The notes under the pieces are model-generated. The model saw only the letters and a list, made by a program, of their open reading frames with translations. It was not told where the DNA came from and ran no database searches. A program made the translations under genes and the position numbers. Shown piece after piece: positions 13,036-29,972 of a stretch of 64,000 nt of DNA (its first letter is position 1; every line of letters starts with the position of its first letter). This DNA comes from an uncultured Bacteroidia bacterium. Its GTDB lineage: Bacteria; Bacteroidota; Bacteroidia; Bacteroidales; F082. The stretch is taken from the NCBI GenBank assembly GCA_902801465.1, contig CADCIH010000002.1:78851-142850 (forward strand). The letters are read 5' to 3'.

Positions 13036-14718
13036 ATGATGGATTTTTTGAAAGAAAACTTGATGATCGTACTGTTGTGCGTGATTCTGGCCATTGTGAT
13101 CCCCTTCTTGATTTATTACCTTCGCACCGCGAAGCGTTACCATCCGAAAGGTTTGATCGCAGCGGCACTCAGCAACATGGGTGAGCGTTTCGGCTACTAC
13201 ATCATGAACGCCATCTTGCTGTTGTTCCTCGTCTCAAAATTTGGTTTGCCAGATGGTGTTGCTGGTATTATTTACTCGGTGTTTTACTTCGGCATCTATG
13301 TGCTTGCCTTGGTAGGTGGTATCATTGCCGACCGTACGCAGAACTACCATGGCACCATTCAGTGGGGCTTGATTATCATGGCTGTCGGTTATGTGGCTCT
13401 GGCCATCCCGCTCTTCAGCCGTGATGCTCAAGGCATTATTGCCGACGGCACCGGTGCATGGTGGGGCATCCTCATCTTCACCTGCGTGGCACTGCTTATG
13501 ATCGCCTTCGGTAACGGTTTGTTCAAAGGCAACTTGCAGGCGCTGGTCGGTCAGTTGTACGACAACTTCGAGGCTGAAGCTGCCAAGAAAGGTCCCGAGG
13601 CCCTGGCCGAAGCCAAGGATCGTCGAGACAGCGGTTTCCAGATTTTCTATGTGTTCATCAATATTGGTGGTGTGATCGCCCCCTTCGTGGCTCCGTTGCT
13701 GCGTGTTTGGTGGTTGAAGATCCATAACTTCCTTTATAACGCGGATATGCCGGCTCTCTGCCATCAGTACTTGAAAGACGGTCAGGTGACCACCAAGTTC
13801 ACCGAGACCATGAGCAGCTCCGTGATTGATGCCAGCGCTGCCACCGACTTGACGCAGTTCTGCTCTGATTATATCGGTGTCTACAACCAAGGCATCCACT
13901 TCGCCTTCATCGCTTCGATGATCGCCATGATGATTTCCTTGATTGTGTTCATCTCCCAAAAGAAGAAATTCCCGCAACCTGGTAAGAAACTGGCCGCCGA
14001 AGTGGCTGGCTATACGCCTGAAGAGAAGGCTGCCATGGCTAAGGAAATCAAGCAACGTATGGCTGCCTTGTTCGCCGTGTTGGGCATCGCTGTGTTCTTC
14101 TGGCTCTCGTTCCACCAAAATGGACAGTCGCTGATGCTGTTTGCCCGCGACTTCGTCAACTCCGAGTGGCTCGCTCCTGAGATTACACAAGCATTGAACC
14201 CCTTGTTCGTAATCATCTTGACTCCTATCGTCATGGGCATCTTTGCTGCCTTGGTCAGAAAGGGCAAAGGCGTTTCCACGCCACGTAAGATTGCCTTGGG
14301 TATGTTCATTGCCGGCATCGCCTACCTCTTCTTGATGTCGCTTTCGCTGCTCAACGGTTATCCGTCAGGCAATGAGTTCCGCGCCATGGATAGTGCCACG
14401 ATGGCTTCCGCAGGGTTGCACAAACAAGGCTATTGGGTGATGTTCGTCGTGTACTTCTTCCTGACGGTGGCTGAGCTGTTCATCTCACCGCTGGGTCTGT
14501 CGTTCGTGTCGAAAGTCGCCCCACGTCACCTGCAGGGTCTCTGCCAGGGTCTCTGGCTCGCTGCCACCGCCATCGGCAACCTGTTTATCTTCGTGGGTCC
14601 CCTCATGTACAACGCATGGCCGATCTGGGTTTGCTGGACTGTGTTCTTAAGCGTCTGCATCGTCTCCATGTCGATCATGCTGGGTATGGTGAAATGGCTT
14701 GAACGTGTCACTGCCTAA
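13036..14718 (+). CDS. POT/PTR2-family peptide transporter
   Basis: A 560-residue integral membrane protein of the proton-dependent oligopeptide transporter family (major facilitator superfamily), importing di- and tripeptides. It has an extra N-terminal membrane helix (residues 6-28), then the first POT signature NMGERFGYY, where the usual first Glu of ExxERFxYY is Asn. The PTR2 signature FYVFINIGGVIAPF follows near residue 215. The start may be either of the two adjacent ATGs at 13036 and 13039. A second POT gene follows after 55 bp, so the pair is probably co-transcribed. Confidence 0.9.
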   Translation: MMDFLKENLMIVLLCVILAIVIPFLIYYLRTAKRYHPKGLIAAALSNMGERFGYYIMNAILLLFLVSKFGLPDGVAGIIYSVFYFGIYVLALVGGIIADRTQNYHGTIQWGLIIMAVGYVALAIPLFSRDAQGIIADGTGAWWGILIFTCVALLMIAFGNGLFKGNLQALVGQLYDNFEAEAAKKGPEALAEAKDRRDSGFQIFYVFINIGGVIAPFVAPLLRVWWLKIHNFLYNADMPALCHQYLKDGQVTTKFTETMSSSVIDASAATDLTQFCSDYIGVYNQGIHFAFIASMIAMMISLIVFISQKKKFPQPGKKLAAEVAGYTPEEKAAMAKEIKQRMAALFAVLGIAVFFWLSFHQNGQSLMLFARDFVNSEWLAPEITQALNPLFVIILTPIVMGIFAALVRKGKGVSTPRKIALGMFIAGIAYLFLMSLSLLNGYPSGNEFRAMDSATMASAGLHKQGYWVMFVVYFFLTVAELFISPLGLSFVSKVAPRHLQGLCQGLWLAATAIGNLFIFVGPLMYNAWPIWVCWTVFLSVCIVSMSIMLGMVKWLERVTA

Positions 14719-14730
14719 TCTACCAACAGA

Positions 14731-14747
14731 GCACCCCTATGGGGTGC
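14731..14747. repeat. Single hairpin repeat between the POT genes
   Basis: GCACCCC-TAT-GGGGTGC, a 7-bp stem with a 3-nt loop, of the same type as the array at 6533-6662. It may act as an RNA-stability or attenuation hairpin between the two transporter genes. Confidence 0.7.
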
Positions 14748-14773
14748 GGTGACAAATACTTAACCTTTATACT

Positions 14774-16456
14774 ATGTTTAAGGGACATCCTAAAGGCCTC
14801 TATGCGCTCGCCCTCGCCAACACGGGCGAGCGCTTTGGCTATTATACCATGTTGGCCATCTTTGTGCTTTTCCTGCAAGCCAAGTTCGGCTACAACGAAG
14901 CACAAGCGGGCCATATCTACGGCATCTTCCTCGGATGCGTCTATTTCATGCCTCTCATCGGTGGTATGCTGGCCGACCGTTTCGGCTATGGCAAGATGGT
15001 CCGCATAGGCATCGTTGTGATGTTCCTCGGCTACCTGCTGTTGGCCGTACCCATGGCCACCGCGACGGCAAAAATCACCATGTTCTCGGCTTTGGCGTTG
15101 ATCGCCATCGGAACGGGTCTCTTTAAGGGTAACCTCCAGGTGATGGTGGGCAACCTCTACGACGAGGCCAAATACAGTGCCTTCCGCGACAACGGCTTCA
15201 GCCTGTTTTACATGGCCATTAATATCGGCTCGATGTTCGCTCCCATGGCGGCTACCAAAGTCACCGACCTCTTCCTCGGAAAAGCGGGTTATACCTACGT
15301 GCCGCAGATTCCCTCACTGGCACACCAGTACCTCGATGGCACCATCAGTGCCGATGCCCTCTCAAGCTTCGAGGCCCTGGCGGTCCAACAAGGGGGCAAT
15401 GTCAATGACTTGGCTGGTTTCGCCAACAGCTATATCGACGCCCTTTCAGGTGCCTATAACTACGGCTTCGGCGTGGCATGCATCTCGTTGATTCTCTCCA
15501 TGGCCATCTATCTGTGCTGCCGCAAGTGGTTCAAACACGCTGACGTGAACGCCAAGCAGGCCAAGAAGATGGAAAGCACTACCGTGAACGTGCAGGAACT
15601 CTCCAAGGAGCAGACCCGCGAACGTATCACCGCCCTGGCCCTGGTCTTTGTGGTGGTCATCTTCTTCTGGATGTCGTTCCAGCAGGCGGGTCTCTGCCTG
15701 ACCTACTTCGCCCGCGACTATACGCAAAGCACGGCAAGTGGTCTCACTCGTTTCGGCTTCAATATCTGGGCGTTGGCCTTGGTCGCCGTGTCGATTTACA
15801 CGATGTTCGGTGCCGCCCAAGCCACCAAACCCATGAACCGTGGCATCCTTTGTGGTGTTACGACATTCCTATGGGTCATGGCAGCGATGCTTTATAAGAC
15901 TATGCCTGATACGATCAACATCCTGCCGCAGCAGTTCCAGCAGTTCAACCCCTTCTTTGTAGTGGCCCTGACGCCCGTCTCGATGGCGGTGTTTGGTGCC
16001 TTGGCGAGGAAAGGGAAGGAGCCGTCCTCACCGCGTAAGATTGGCATGGGTATGATCGTGGCCGCTCTCGGCTTCCTCATCTTGGTCGTCTGCTCCTTCC
16101 CCTTGGCCAGCCCGGCAGAACTGAAGGCGCAAGGTGGCGTGAGTAGCACATTGGTCTCGCCCAACTGGCTCATCAGCACCTATCTCGTGCTGACTTTTGC
16201 AGAGCTGTTGCTGAGTCCCATTGGCATCTCCTTCGTCACCAAGGTGGCCCCGCCCAAGTACAAGGGCATGATGATGGGTCTCTGGTTCTGCGTGACCGCC
16301 ATCGGCAACTACCTCACCTCGGTCATCGCCCGTATTTGGGGCACCGGCATGCCGCTCTGGATGGTCTGGGGCGTCCTCGTGGTGCTCTGCCTGCTCTCCG
16401 CAGTGTTTATCTTCTCCATCATGAAACGACTGGAGAAGGCAACCTCCGGGTGCTGA
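14774..16456 (+). CDS. POT/PTR2-family peptide transporter (second copy)
   Basis: A 560-residue oligopeptide:proton symporter, a diverged paralogue of the gene before it but without the extra N-terminal helix. The first POT signature is NTGERFGYY, again lacking the first Glu. The PTR2 signature FYMAINIGSMFAPM lies near residue 150. About 12-14 membrane segments are visible. The residue change shared by both copies suggests an altered proton-coupling network typical of this branch rather than decay. A terminator follows at 16481. Confidence 0.9.
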   Translation: MFKGHPKGLYALALANTGERFGYYTMLAIFVLFLQAKFGYNEAQAGHIYGIFLGCVYFMPLIGGMLADRFGYGKMVRIGIVVMFLGYLLLAVPMATATAKITMFSALALIAIGTGLFKGNLQVMVGNLYDEAKYSAFRDNGFSLFYMAINIGSMFAPMAATKVTDLFLGKAGYTYVPQIPSLAHQYLDGTISADALSSFEALAVQQGGNVNDLAGFANSYIDALSGAYNYGFGVACISLILSMAIYLCCRKWFKHADVNAKQAKKMESTTVNVQELSKEQTRERITALALVFVVVIFFWMSFQQAGLCLTYFARDYTQSTASGLTRFGFNIWALALVAVSIYTMFGAAQATKPMNRGILCGVTTFLWVMAAMLYKTMPDTINILPQQFQQFNPFFVVALTPVSMAVFGALARKGKEPSSPRKIGMGMIVAALGFLILVVCSFPLASPAELKAQGGVSSTLVSPNWLISTYLVLTFAELLLSPIGISFVTKVAPPKYKGMMMGLWFCVTAIGNYLTSVIARIWGTGMPLWMVWGVLVVLCLLSAVFIFSIMKRLEKATSGC

Positions 16457-16561: not shown

Positions 16562-17482
16562 TTAAAGCCTGATTTTGTTGATAATTTCTTCTGCTGTGAT
16601 TTCTTTTATTAATGTGAATCCAAACCATTTCTTCCCTAAATCCTTGATAGAGGCTCCAATAAGATAAACTTCATTGTCAATAATCAAAAAACGGTCATGT
16701 GCTTTATGGAAACGTATTATCTCAATCATGGGATATTGAGAGTTGTGACGTTGAAGGTCAATTTGAAGCTGTTGGTTGAGATTCGCTGTATAGATTGTTG
16801 CTGAAACGTTTTCATTGCGTTTGTCCAATATGGAGAGAACAGTCTCATCTACATAATTGTCAATTAAGACGATTGTTCTCTGTGCATTACGGATTAAACC
16901 ACAAACAAATTGATAGGCGTCAAATATTTGACCGTCGAAGAATATTCCTTGTTGTGGCTGTGCATTGGCATCCAATCGATTGAACACTTCATCAATGCGT
17001 TTGTCGGTTTCAACCTGATGATATTCTATAGTAGAGAGTCGTTGGATGATTTGTGTGTTATTGACTAAAAAGCGACGCATGGCAATGAAAGTCCTCATAA
17101 TACGAATGTTCACTTCAATGGCTGTTTGGGATTTCAATACGCTACTTAACATGGCTATTCCACTTTCTGTAAAAGCGTATGGTAGGAATTTCAGGTTTTG
17201 ACCTCTTTTCCCGTTCAAGATCACAAATTGTGATTTTGAACATTCCTCTTTTGTTAACTGAAACATAAAGTCACTTGGGAAACGACGGGTGTTTCGCTTT
17301 ACCGCTTGATTGATAATTCTGGTCTCCACTCCATAGAGCATTGCCAAGTCCTTATCTAGCATTACTTGAACACCTCTTATGCAATAAATCAATGATTCTA
17401 TATCGAACGTGTTTATATTATTATTGGAATTGGTAATTGACAAGTCTTCATCTTCAGTAGTATTAATATTATCTTTATTCAT
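16562..17482 (-). CDS. ORF6N-domain protein with PLD-like C-terminus
   Basis: 306 residues from the ATG at 17482, chosen because the -7 element TATTTTTG lies at 17507-17514, inside any longer frame. The N-terminal half is a phage-type ORF6N domain (LYGVETRIINQAVKRN, RRFPSDFMFQLTKEE, YAFTESGIAMLSSVL), a fold linked to DNA binding in phages. The C-terminal half looks like a single phospholipase D-type domain with HDRFLIID, an HxR-x4-D variant of the HKD motif, and ends in a GASIKDLGKK segment. Such fusions are common in mobile elements and may be nucleases or DNA-binding regulators. It diverges from the structured RNA and PD-(D/E)XK gene. Confidence 0.8.
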   Translation of the reverse strand: MNKDNINTTEDEDLSITNSNNNINTFDIESLIYCIRGVQVMLDKDLAMLYGVETRIINQAVKRNTRRFPSDFMFQLTKEECSKSQFVILNGKRGQNLKFLPYAFTESGIAMLSSVLKSQTAIEVNIRIMRTFIAMRRFLVNNTQIIQRLSTIEYHQVETDKRIDEVFNRLDANAQPQQGIFFDGQIFDAYQFVCGLIRNAQRTIVLIDNYVDETVLSILDKRNENVSATIYTANLNQQLQIDLQRHNSQYPMIEIIRFHKAHDRFLIIDNEVYLIGASIKDLGKKWFGFTLIKEITAEEIINKIRL

Positions 17483-17506
17483 GATTTTAATAATTTTACA
17501 TCTCTG

Positions 17507-17514
17507 CAAAAATA
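17507..17514 (-). promoter_or_regulatory. -7 element for the ORF6N gene
   Basis: TATTTTTG on the minus strand, 25 bp from the ATG at 17482. Confidence 0.65.
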
Positions 17515-17568
17515 ATATCATTTACAGCTTTTGTCAATGTTTTTTTTTGTGTTTTCTAAGAAAAAGTG

Positions 17569-17576
17569 TATCTTTG
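17569..17576 (+). promoter_or_regulatory. -7 element for the structured RNA / nuclease transcript
   Basis: TATCTTTG, 311 bp before the nuclease ATG, back to back with the ORF6N promoter. The expected transcription start is near 17583. Confidence 0.65.
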
Positions 17577-17582
17577 CCATTA

Positions 17583-17887
17583 ATTGTCCGGGGAGAAATC
17601 CGGACAGTTGAAGGCAATTTGTGCTTGTATCTTGTTGTACGAATTCTGGAAAAACAAGTAGATGAGATATAGATCACAAGTGAGCCAGCCTAAATTGTAT
17701 TCAATCAGTTTAACTGTTGATGCTATAGGCTAGGCAAACAGTGTACTATTTTTATCTACGAGGTTTTCCAGAGCCTGTACAACGGAAATAGCTGCAAAGA
17801 GTTTCCTAGCCTTCTTTTGTATTGTGCCAACTCGGGGAAACTATAGGCGGAAACGTTGTGCCCGACACGGATTAGGGGAATGATATT
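17583..17887 (+). ncRNA. Long structured RNA upstream of the PD-(D/E)XK gene
   Basis: About 305 nt between a strong promoter and the nuclease start, with no credible coding frame. Pairings seen: a 5' hairpin TGTCCGG/CCGGACA (17585-17606); then a long coaxial arm TTGTAC 17635-17640 / GTACAA 17777-17782, CTGGAAAA 17646-17653 / TTTTCCAG 17764-17771, and GTAGAT 17658-17663 / ATCTAC 17754-17759, separated by 5-nt and 3-4-nt symmetric loops. Inside it is GCC-AGCCTA 17684-17692 with TAGGCT-A-GGC 17726-17735. A GGAAA/TTTCC hairpin (17784-17806) follows. CTATAGGC occurs twice (17723 and 17841), which could allow alternative pairing. It matches no riboswitch, retron or intron that I can recall. Confidence 0.65.
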
Positions 17888-18520
17888 ATGAGTGATATTT
17901 CAAAAAGCGCTATTTTCAAAGATAGTATTGAGGAAATAATCAGAGACACTTTTAGAGCTGTTCAAGATGCCTATGATTACCAAACGGAGAATGCTCCAAA
18001 ACTTAACAATCCGAATAGACAAAAACTAAGCCGCATCATCTTTCCCGGAAAAAGGAACGAATCGATACGTATTAGTGAACAGGAACTCAGATTTGTGTTT
18101 GTTGAGCAATTGAACAAGAAAATCGAAAAGGGTTGGGATGTGTTCTACGCAGTTGAAACCCCAACAAAAGATAGTTACAGTGGGTTCAGCAAAGGACGAG
18201 ACCCAAGACAAGATGAAAATGGACGTTCGGGAGAATTCGATCTAGTTATTTTCAATAATCACATGAATCGAATAGCTCTTATTGAGTTTAAAGCCAACAA
18301 TGCTTCATCCCATGACCATAAGAAGGATTTCGTCAAATTGAACAATCCGAAAGAAGGGGGAAAAGAAGTTCTAAGATATCTCATTGAAATAGTCAACGCA
18401 TTCGATAATAGAACGCTCTCACGTCTTCATTCTAAAATCACAGGCAATGAATCCGTGTTCAGATGCTGGTCATTGAAAGATGGAAGAGAGATTACGCAGG
18501 ATATAATAAAGACCAAATAA
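17888..18520 (+). CDS. PD-(D/E)XK nuclease-like protein
   Basis: A 210-residue soluble protein. The PD-(D/E)XK core is visible as GEFDLVIF with D118, a 14-residue spacing, then E133-F-K135 in ALIEFKAN, with a preceding Glu-rich helix (ISEQELRFVFVEQL). This layout matches restriction-endonuclease-like enzymes that cut DNA or RNA with Mg2+. There is no HTH, helicase or methylase domain and no methylase gene next door, so it is not an ordinary restriction enzyme. It is preceded by a 305-nt structured leader RNA, and its base composition is AT-rich. The family name is unknown to me; the nuclease fold is a sequence-pattern inference. Confidence 0.65.
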   Translation: MSDISKSAIFKDSIEEIIRDTFRAVQDAYDYQTENAPKLNNPNRQKLSRIIFPGKRNESIRISEQELRFVFVEQLNKKIEKGWDVFYAVETPTKDSYSGFSKGRDPRQDENGRSGEFDLVIFNNHMNRIALIEFKANNASSHDHKKDFVKLNNPKEGGKEVLRYLIEIVNAFDNRTLSRLHSKITGNESVFRCWSLKDGREITQDIIKTK

Positions 18521-20572: not shown

Positions 20573-21247
20573 ATGAAAGACTCCGTCATCATCATCTCCG
20601 GCGGCATGGACTCGACCACCATGCTTTACGAGTTCAAGGATGAAATCGCCTTGGCCATCACCTTCGACTATGGGTCCACCCAGAATGGACGTGAGCGGGT
20701 GTGCGCCATCACCCACTGCCAGCGTTTGGGCATCAAACATATTGTGGTGCCGCTGGAGTTCATGCACCGCTATTTCAAGAGTGCCCTGCTGATGACGGCT
20801 GACGATATTCCGGAAGGCAACTACGACGACGAAAACATGAAATCCACGGTGGTTCCTTTCCGCAATGGCATCATGCTGGCCATCGCTGCTGGCATTGCGG
20901 AGAGCAACGGACTGAAACGGGTGATGATCGCCAACCACTCGGGCGACCACTCCATCTATCCCGACTGCCGTCCGAGCTTTGTCAATGCCATGTCGGAAGC
21001 GATGTCGAATGGAACGTATGACCATATAACTGTATATGCACCTTATACCAATCTCAGCAAGAAGGAAATCGCCGAACATGGCAAGGCCTTGGGCATTGAT
21101 TACAGCGAGACATACTCCTGTTATAAAGGTGGCGAAAAACACTGCGGCAAATGCGGCACCTGCCGCGAACGCATCCAGGCCCTCCACGACGCCGGCATCA
21201 TCGACAACACAGAATATGAATGCGGAATTTTCATTCCGCATTCCTAA
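20573..21247 (+). CDS. queC: 7-cyano-7-deazaguanine synthase
   Basis: A 224-residue ATP-pyrophosphatase that converts 7-carboxy-7-deazaguanine plus ammonia to preQ0. The PP-loop SGGMDSTTMLYEF lies at residues 6-18. The zinc cluster of four Cys is near the end (CYKGGEKHCGKCGTC). The C-terminal tail TEYECGIFIPHS is encoded by a heptad-repeat hairpin (21218-21260) that overlaps the stop codon, so the natural end is probably altered by the repeat. It lies 26 bp after queF and 21 bp before queD in one operon. Confidence 0.95.
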   Translation: MKDSVIIISGGMDSTTMLYEFKDEIALAITFDYGSTQNGRERVCAITHCQRLGIKHIVVPLEFMHRYFKSALLMTADDIPEGNYDDENMKSTVVPFRNGIMLAIAAGIAESNGLKRVMIANHSGDHSIYPDCRPSFVNAMSEAMSNGTYDHITVYAPYTNLSKKEIAEHGKALGIDYSETYSCYKGGEKHCGKCGTCRERIQALHDAGIIDNTEYECGIFIPHS

Positions 21248-21260
21248 TTCCTAATTCCGC
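21218..21260. repeat. Heptad repeat family C and hairpin at the queC stop
   Basis: Units ATTCCGC, ATTCCTA, ATTCCTA and ATTCCGC (21233-21260). An upstream inverted arm makes a perfect 11-bp hairpin GAATGCGGAAT / ATTCCGCATTC (21218-21243) with a 4-nt loop. The array covers the last codons and stop of queC. A related array is at 29506. Confidence 0.85.
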
Positions 21261-21268
21261 ATTAAAAA

Positions 21269-21622
21269 ATGTATTACGTAAGAAAAACCTTAGAAATATC
21301 TGCTTGCCATCAGCTTTATCTCGATTATGAGAGCAAATGCGAGAACCTGCATGGCCACAATTGGAAGATCAACGTGTATTGCCGTGCTGAGCAACTCGAC
21401 AGCAATGGCATGGTGTGCGACTTCACCTTGATCAAAAAGATGATCCATGGTAAGATCGATCATACCAACATCAACGAAGTGCTCGATTTCAACCCAACCG
21501 CCGAAAATCTGGCCAAGTGGATCGTCGACACGGTGCCGAACTGCTACCGCGCCGACGTTTGGGAGTCACGCGATAACAAGGCCTCCTATATCAAGGACGA
21601 TGCGCCACAAAACTTCGATTGA
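21269..21622 (+). CDS. queD: 6-carboxy-tetrahydropterin synthase
   Basis: A 117-residue T-fold enzyme that turns dihydroneopterin triphosphate into 6-carboxy-tetrahydropterin, the first committed step of 7-deazaguanine synthesis. Zinc-binding histidines appear in SACHQL and in NLHGHNW (HxH). The catalytic Cys lies in YESKCENLHGH and the DHTNINEVL motif follows. The length is typical. The TGA overlaps the queE ATG by one base (TGATG), so the two are translationally coupled. Confidence 0.94.
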   Translation: MYYVRKTLEISACHQLYLDYESKCENLHGHNWKINVYCRAEQLDSNGMVCDFTLIKKMIHGKIDHTNINEVLDFNPTAENLAKWIVDTVPNCYRADVWESRDNKASYIKDDAPQNFD

Positions 21623-22212
21623 TGTTTAAAATCAACGAAATATTCCACTCCCTTCAAGGCGAAGGCTTCCACACTGGAACGCCAGCGGTCTTCGTGCGCT
21701 TCAGCGGATGCAACCTCCATTGTGCCTTTTGCGACACCCAGCATCAAACTGGTACCTTGATGTCAACCCAAGCCATCATTGATGAGGTCAACAAATACCC
21801 CAATGCCCCGTTGATTGTCCTGACCGGCGGCGAACCGTCTTTGTTTATCGACGAGGCCTTTGTTGAAGAGCTGAAGCGTCAAACGGGTAAGCACATCGCC
21901 ATCGAGACCAACGGCACCCGACCTTTGCCCACCAATCTTGATTGGGTGACCTTCTCACCCAAAACGGGATTCGATGGGGGAGATGCCGAGCCTTGTGTTC
22001 TTAAACAATGTAACGAGTTGAAGGTGGTGTATCTGGGCCAAGACCTAAGACAATATGAAGGTGTCAAAGCCAGCCATCGGTTCCTTCAGCCGTGCTTCTC
22101 AGAAGATGATGCTCAATGCCAGATCAATATGAAAGCCTGTGTGGAAGCTGTGTTGAATAATCCCGGATGGCGCCTCTCTCTTCAAACCCACCGCATCCTC
22201 AACATCCGTTAA
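21622..22212 (+). CDS. queE: 7-carboxy-7-deazaguanine synthase (radical SAM)
   Basis: A 196-residue radical-SAM enzyme converting 6-carboxy-tetrahydropterin to 7-carboxy-7-deazaguanine. The cluster motif CNLHCAFCDT gives a CxxxCxxC [4Fe-4S] site near residues 31-38. The GGEPSLF motif for SAM binding follows, then an ETNGTRPLP segment. The start ATG at 21622 is fixed by overlap with the queD stop. It is the last gene of the queFCDE operon; the next gene is on the other strand. Confidence 0.94.
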   Translation: MFKINEIFHSLQGEGFHTGTPAVFVRFSGCNLHCAFCDTQHQTGTLMSTQAIIDEVNKYPNAPLIVLTGGEPSLFIDEAFVEELKRQTGKHIAIETNGTRPLPTNLDWVTFSPKTGFDGGDAEPCVLKQCNELKVVYLGQDLRQYEGVKASHRFLQPCFSEDDAQCQINMKACVEAVLNNPGWRLSLQTHRILNIR

Positions 22213-29554: not shown

Positions 29555-29926
29555 GGCGATGAGAGAAGACTGTCGCGGGTCGGGAAAGCCGGCGCGAGGA
29601 AAGTCGGGACAGCACAGAGCACCGTACTTCCTAACGGGAAGGTGTCCGCAAGGGCAACAGCAAGTGCCGCAGAAAATATACCGCCCCACAAGGGTAAGGG
29701 TGAAAACGCGAGGCAAGAGCTCACGCGACGGGTGGTGACACTCCGCCGAGGTAAACCTTACGGGCTGCAAGTCCAAGTATAGAGGCAAGGGCCGCTTCGG
29801 CGGCCGAACGGGCTGCTCGTCCGTCGCCTCAGGGTAGGGCGCTTGAGCCTGTGGGTGACCGCAGGTCTAGAGAAATGACAGTCGCCCCGAAAGGGGAACA
29901 GAATCCCGCTTACCACTCTCATCGCC
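29555..29926 (+). ncRNA. rnpB: RNase P RNA, bacterial class A
   Basis: About 372 nt. The ends pair as P1 (GGCGATGAGAG at 29555-29565 with CTCTCATCGCC at 29916-29926). Conserved core sequences are present: GAGGAAAGTC near 29597, ACAGNAA-type CAACAGCAAG, and the 3' AGAGAAATGACAGTCGCC followed by ACAGAATCCCGCTTA. It forms the catalytic part of RNase P, which trims tRNA 5' leaders. A T-rich stretch follows; exact ends are uncertain by a few bases. Confidence 0.96.
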
Positions 29927-29972
29927 TTTTATAATAAAAAGCGCGTATGCACGTTATACTTTTTAAGTTATT

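Follow-up and report, generated by a model that had tools for sequence, protein, structure and literature searches.

The RNA encoded on the plus strand at 17577-17848 of the window, as we call the whole 64,000-nt stretch of DNA from an uncultured Bacteroidia bacterium analysed here, is the long form of a larger family of leader RNAs without a match in Rfam 15. Judged from sequence, the family is a cis-regulatory 5' leader RNA with its own predicted promoter, and it appears to be a new Bacteroidota family of cis-acting leader RNAs whose most likely mode of action, in our moderately confident view, is transcription attenuation. Two forms are distinguished: class 1, the long form of about 270 nt, and class 2, the ~190-nt form.

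The leader RNA, its locus and its relatives

A Bacteroidota-type promoter (17546..17576, plus strand) stands ahead of the RNA, with TTTG (17546-17549) and TATCTTTG (17569-17576) separated by 19 nt; it was recognised by what we take to be the Bacteroidota consensus, and it gives a position to the promoter described in the initial annotation. The RNA would start at about 17580-17585, and no evident gene lies between the promoter and the ATG at 17888. The window RNA gives a full-length profile match with E 1e-71, to a profile whose alignment includes the window RNA itself, and the class-1 RNA is further defined by A1, an alignment of 35 class-1 copies. The fold of 17580-17890 reaches -106.6 kcal/mol, while 100 dinucleotide shuffles average -76.4 (sd 5.0), which corresponds to z -6.1, and the minus strand of the same interval gives a folding z of -4.3 against dinucleotide shuffles; the RNA is more than chance because it is conserved across genomes, and both its folding and its conservation uphold the earlier description of a real, structured RNA.

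Along the plus strand the pairing strands follow one another in the order P2-5', A5, U, S, A3 and D, then a U tract. Ahead of them the previously noted 5' hairpin, which is specific to class 1, is placed at 17580-17611 by the MFE fold; both sides have changed in 5/12 of its consensus pairs, changes that are carried by a few sequences only. P2-5' (17621..17642) pairs with the start of U, and its 3' part also forms the outer portion of helix A, while A5 (17643..17656, core UCUGGAAAA) is followed by U (17664..17694), the proposed antiterminator partner of S. The strand S itself (17723..17756) is able to pair with U or with D; A3 (UUUUCCAGAGCCUGUACAAC, 17764..17785) is the partner of A5 and P2-5'; and D (17784..17813), the proposed terminator partner of S, is followed directly by the U tract UUCUUUU (17812..17818), the proposed point of termination, at which the match to the class-2 model ends. 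The 3' extension E of class 1 (17826..17848) is conserved in A1. The multi-part arm described at the outset is found with GUUGUAC and CUGGAAAA pairing with UUUUCCAG and GUACAAC, and the repeated element with two copies of CTATAGGC, at 17723 and 17841.

Between the RNA and the ATG lies GTTGTGCCCGACACGGATTAGGG (17855-17877, plus strand), an instance of a short pre-ATG motif, GTTGYGCCCGACACG-N-ATTAGGG, defined by a pattern scan and by distances to ORF starts. With <=2 mismatches allowed the pattern occurs in 72/99 genomes of the genus, the reversed control pattern giving 0 in every row of the scan. An ATG-started ORF of >=40 aa follows within 60 nt at 45 of the 46 unique sites in the loci compared, and the gap from AGG to the ATG has a median of 9 nt, being exactly 9 in 26 sites and 11 in the window. 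The motif is a separate element, because it is found behind class-1 RNAs or alone, and it probably acts at translation. It is also present at G000:C13:46509 and G000:C3:279, often stands before lipoprotein-like or secreted genes, and occurs on contig G109:C22 in eight copies on one strand within 6 kb.

Several neighbours of the RNA were also characterized. A gene for an ORF6N-domain protein (16562-17521, minus strand; Pfam E 2e-33) reads away from the RNA, and among the loci compared it has a relative outside its own genome only in L024 (51% over 146 aa). POT-type transporter genes (13036-16456) adjoin the RNA, and their relatives neighbour class-1 RNAs in other genomes (loci L001, L003, L010, L029 and L030), where the genes behind the RNA differ; this side of the locus looks like a variable spot next to conserved genes. 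Elsewhere in the window, a row of preQ0 genes at 20573-22212, which from the appearance of the ORFs are presumably queC, queD and queE, has no link to the RNA, and 29557-29928 encodes the RNase P RNA of bacterial class A (Rfam).

A DNA search of 100 related genomes found class-1 matches in 28, every one from the genus of the window. Besides its own genome, long matches occur in 19 genomes, at 24 places and with 71-89% identity, and the remaining 8 have no more than short pieces. R1, a sequence model of class 1, finds 43 places at >=150 bits in 34/99 genomes of the genus, with at most 3 per genome. A pattern scan of 84,980 species genomes returned 52 stretches, mostly from Bacteroidales or Bacteroidia genomes and with 'Candidatus Limimorpha' among the genome names. 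The pattern matches from other phyla have no 3' end at the distance where it would be expected, except for a full class-1 copy (L079) in a genome bin labelled Bacillota, which may be mis-binned. Carriage of the window's RNA by phages or plasmids was rejected, as blastn with this RNA gave no match in either collection; class-2 queries matched one plasmid record and none among the phages. The viral contig L083 has a class-1 pattern match at its end, not confirmed as a copy, and the viral contigs L188 and L189 match both the class-2 pattern and the class-2 profile.

Weak matches to R1, of 20-27 bits, led to the shorter form, since 11 of them fetched from 11 genomes proved to be a shorter related RNA; ten of these 11 were used to build the sequence model R2. 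R2 has matches in 37/40 genomes of the genus, in 91/295 genomes and 64/183 genera of the order, and in 33/296 genomes and 16/140 genera of the phylum, where all three tallies count the window's own genome, that of the order also holds three further genomes of the window's genus and that of the phylum one further genome of its order. Both models score sequence only, with rough E-values, and in searches over 40 genomes the filters lose weak matches. Match counts can take in the opposite strand of the same hairpin, as do some of the up to 17 matches per genome. The window RNA itself scores 25.4 bits with R2 at 17609-17818 (G000:C2:96459-96668), and other class-1 copies reach up to 44 bits. Since R2 scores class-1 RNAs, the two classes share a core, a kinship that is not independent of the choice of R2 seeds through R1. 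A record of Parabacteroides distasonis holds a copy of the family (E 9.8e-27), the next annotated gene being a response regulator 270 nt downstream on the same strand.

The known unrelated element that had been named as a possible identity of the RNA was sought in Rfam and not found. At the gathering score Rfam has no match to the window RNA, ribozyme families included, and at E<=5 it gives only a meaningless microRNA model (E 4.6). The RNA itself is likewise unmatched in 48 class-2 loci (11 + 17 + 20, the last 20 at gathering score only), and 6S RNA or any other listed family was rejected on these results for the window and the class-2 loci. Among the papers listed by text searches, none describes the family in its title or abstract; one of the 3161 candidates of PMC8040213 might overlap with it.

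Covariation and two exclusive pairings

The position of the RNA is that of a leader. Profile searches yielded 155 unique copies, a few of them class 1, and 139 of these had both sufficient sequence on the downstream side and an ORF of >=60 aa there, ORFs being called by their length without a gene finder. The closest downstream ORF shares the strand of the RNA in 133 of the 139, after a median gap of 43 nt; it does so within 150 nt in 122, as against 4 copies with an opposite-strand ORF within that distance. Upstream, the closest ORF shares the strand in 83 copies and runs the other way in 48. All 41 unique class-1 RNAs have the promoter element TAnnTTTG between -80 and +12, where letter shuffles predict 4.1, and in 40 RNAs it falls into a single 10-nt bin; of the class-2 RNAs 106/158 have it, against 7.6 predicted by letter shuffles.

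The pairings were assessed by comparing the duplex energy of native partner strands with that of partners swapped between RNAs. In class 2 (n=104, 108 RNAs having been picked for diversity and 4 removed by hand) four pairings covary: A5:A3 (z -1.98, native better than the median in 103), S:D (z -2.01, 102), U:S (z -1.52, 102) and P2-5':U (z -0.79, 89). The other eight of the 12 pairings tested, out of 15 possible, stay at |z| <=0.15. The value for S:D is similar within the window's genus (z -1.93, 36 RNAs) and in other genera (z -1.83, 68 RNAs). In class 1 (n=35) the strongest signal is that of P2-5':A3 (z -2.18, 35/35 better than the median), followed by U:S (z -1.09), a modest S:D (z -0.64), one helix of which has 12 pairs without any two-sided change, and P2-5':U (z -0.62, 27/35); A5:A3 shows no covariation (z -0.02) and hardly varies, six of its nine pairs never doing so, and the remaining pairings have |z| <=0.29. 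The compensatory changes that the initial annotation had proposed to look for are therefore present in the RNA. Since U:S and S:D both covary, S is complementary to both U and D; the two helices share this strand and would be mutually exclusive, a pattern that is clear in class 2 and weaker for S:D of class 1. Directly after D, a U tract (>=6 T in 9 nt) is present in 98/104 class-2 RNAs.

Two whole-structure states were evaluated on A1. The rod, with U:S closed by A5:A3, has 87.6% of cells paired, 75 cells changed on both sides (35.8 in shuffles) and a covariation score of 0.224 (0.168), and the two-hairpin state has 92.1% paired, 33 changed on both sides (16.1) and a score of 0.210 (0.182); these values were reached by 0/500 shuffles, which do not preserve relatedness. 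For two of the five measures the excess over shuffles is not clear: 14 pairs of the rod show changes on both sides (11.8 in shuffles, reached by 70/500), as do 9 of the two-hairpin state (5.4, 8/500), and the further pair types are reached by 58/500 and 155/500 shuffles respectively. When the partners are slid along, pairing falls and does not exceed 49%, a comparison that favours the native lists as they come from the consensus of A1 itself. The unconstrained consensus fold of A1 corresponds to neither state, having the 5' hairpin and P2 yet pairing S with A3 and D with E, whereas an earlier alignment of 22 sequences gave the rod. Neither S:A3 (z -0.27) nor D:E (z -0.09) covaries, and both were rejected, as was a closing stem of a 5' strand with the tail of D (AAAAGCGU:ACGCUUUU) that single-sequence folds had suggested (z 0.06).

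We propose that RNA polymerase would move through the leader and that U, being made first, would capture S, the resulting U:S antiterminator sitting in a long rod closed by A5:A3 and allowing read-through into the gene. S would be freed by a signal that disturbs the rod or promotes the P2 hairpin, in which the start of U is engaged, and would then pair with D to form an intrinsic terminator, whose U tract would end the transcript ahead of the gene. In this state the two hairpins would carry in their loops the complementary A5 and A3 strands, which might kiss. Here the controlled gene would be that of the PD-(D/E)XK nuclease, and elsewhere accessory, surface and defence genes. In computed energies the rod beats the two-hairpin state in 95/104 RNAs, by a mean of 7.5 kcal/mol, so that reaching the terminator state would take some assistance or kinetic control. 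Also against attenuation, the S:D stem encloses a long loop, and the conserved part E of class 1, 3' of the U tract, is left unexplained by the model.

S:D need not mean switching off, because the order of the strands lets A5:A3 and S:D coexist as a pseudoknot. A static scaffold of this kind, binding a protein and controlling mRNA stability or translation without termination, would suit the A5/A3 core being the best conserved part of the RNA. We consider it unlikely, however, since the nucleotides of S:D also covary as U:S, a pairing that a static fold could do without, and since the U tract behind D is conserved. A second alternative is that the leader mostly terminates and thereby yields a stable ~190-270-nt sRNA acting in trans, with the gene expressed by leak-through. 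The promoter and U tract count in favour of such an RNA, as do its many copies per genome (the maximum of 17 matches includes opposite-strand ones); multicopy sRNA families such as FopS are described for Bacteroides in PMC11697453. As given there, FopS sRNAs are ~65-70 nt long, with a single-stranded 5' part and a terminator, and act in trans; they resemble the present family as a multicopy Bacteroidota RNA family with its own promoters and a tie to SusC-type genes, but a family of ~190-270 nt with a long rod, lying in cis, differs from them, and the length does not fit. The nearly constant same-strand site just before a gene would be unusual for independent sRNAs, which makes this reading quite improbable. 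Attenuation remains the reading that we prefer. The initial annotation is sustained in part: of its options, cis control of attenuator or riboswitch-like type is supported by the leader position, the promoter, the covariation and the exclusive pairings with their U tract.

The nuclease and the other genes behind the RNA

The gene at 17888..18520 (plus strand) encodes a protein of 210 aa that is a predicted PD-(D/E)XK nuclease, its core residues being kept and its fold matches weak. The core reported earlier is borne out, as E64, D118, E133 and K135 are invariant in nine aligned sequences, the most distant of which is 29% identical. An AlphaFold model has a mean pLDDT of 83.5 and a pTM of 0.81, with residues 41-59 poorly modelled. 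Its first matches in the PDB are Can2, VC1899, NucS, Cdn1, Card1, EndoMS, PspGI and DrdV, all of which we take to be PD-(D/E)XK nucleases. These matches are weak (best E 8.3e-3, none reaching E 0.001, TM-scores about 0.3), and Rab GTPases appear further down the list. Pfam gives only sub-threshold hits to VRR_NUC (E 0.029) and HSDR_N_2 (E 0.052), and among the matches listed Pfam, NCBIfam and PADLOC leave the protein unnamed.

Close homologues of the nuclease (68-72%) are present in 6 other genomes among the 99 of the genus searched, and in 7/7 genomes a class-1 RNA lies directly upstream of the gene, which in G057 is in two pieces. Structured RNA directly upstream of a nuclease gene is also the arrangement of IscB and TnpB omega-RNA loci and of further RNA-guided nucleases. 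The present locus shares it, but differs in that the cargo is inconstant and the nuclease occurs without the RNA. A nuclease homologue adjoins 7/43 strong class-1 copies of the same 99 genomes and is absent beside 36/43, and the RNA family has a far broader distribution than the nuclease; the proposed partnership of RNA and protein fails. Three more distant homologues (L277, L278 and L287), of which the genus supplies two (39-40%) and a search of 294 further genomes of the order the third (40% over 115 aa), have no class-1-type RNA in the flanks that were fetched. The homologue in L287 lies downstream of ORFs that, from their motifs, we take to resemble an ATPase and HNH pair (Septu-like). As to whether the nuclease is widespread without the RNA, it is rare and not widespread, yet it does occur without it. 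The dedicated RNA-nuclease pair or RNA-guided nuclease that had been suggested is, on the copies without nuclease and the homologues without RNA, largely refuted and was rejected; despite the seven out of seven close homologues behind a class-1 RNA we regard it as extremely improbable. The RNA and the nuclease are associated locally and do not constitute a system; the nuclease is one cargo among many that the RNA precedes.

This variety of cargo is evident in both classes. The nuclease follows 7 of the 41 unique class-1 copies, a different ORF follows 33, and 1 has none behind it. Scanning 132 downstream proteins gave, among the matches listed (the 25 commonest families per library), 9 with T9SS sorting domains, 5 SusC/RagA receptors, 3 N6-methyltransferases and 2 ResIII helicases, together with WG-repeat, LRR and zinc-ribbon proteins. 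Individual loci have a type III methyltransferase (L162), type I/IIG methyltransferases (L172, L203 and L250), a ResIII helicase (L207) or a PLD-SNF2 helicase (L251) behind the RNA, L250 and L251 being loci of the window's own genome. Small HTH proteins stand behind 36/160 class-2 copies by a simple motif count, and for one HTH protein at least 26 of the 35 best homologues in 40 genomes of the genus are directly behind a listed RNA, a lower bound from comparison by eye.

That similar RNAs have differing cargo, and that several genomes have POT transporter genes beside the RNA but differ in the genes that follow it, might suggest the end of a mobile or recombining cassette whose role is in DNA, the RNA being carried along with exchanged cargo. 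Compensatory changes in the helices, the promoter in front and the fixed orientation to the gene, however, argue for a function of the RNA, and a cassette end is very improbable. Under attenuation, the diversity of the partner genes speaks against a metabolite of any single pathway and would make a global signal or a protein more likely. We tentatively entertain, as a doubtful extension, a general-purpose Bacteroidota switch that would read one global state of the cell and attenuate accessory genes through a common core. With the same reserve, such a switch might find repeated use ahead of genes for surface receptors, for secreted proteins and for small HTH regulators, and of defence genes such as those of restriction-modification; phage attack, envelope stress and the status of transcription or translation are conceivable but equally doubtful examples of the state.

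Comparison with known leader RNAs

Attenuators and terminator-type riboswitches contain mutually exclusive antiterminator and terminator helices. The present family is like them in its leader site, in a strand shared by two exclusive helices, in the U tract and in the gene just downstream. It is unlike them in that it matches none of the 4227 Rfam families, that, across a phylum, the genes behind this single family are unrelated, and that no leader peptide is apparent in the family consensus, the consensus alone having been inspected. As regards a riboswitch, the downstream genes are too diverse to suggest a ligand. In pT181-type plasmid attenuation by antisense RNA, pre-emptor and terminator pairings share a strand; the pairings described here do likewise, but the family precedes many gene types. 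The DUF805 RNA (RF03081) is a cis-regulatory motif as well, but with 68 nt it is shorter and does not overlap the family RNA. In L170 (1714-1779) and L171 (1399-1467) a DUF805 RNA follows the class-2 RNA at 34-36 nt, as tandem structured leader elements, and none was found in 20 further class-2 loci by Rfam at gathering score.

If the proposed attenuation is right, a major bacterial phylum would share an RNA attenuator without any match in Rfam 15, and this attenuator would precede genes central to the phylum, namely those of SusC-type receptors, T9SS-sorted secreted proteins and restriction-modification. The question of the signal that controls these genes would then be directly testable, and the named gut species Parabacteroides distasonis has a clear copy.
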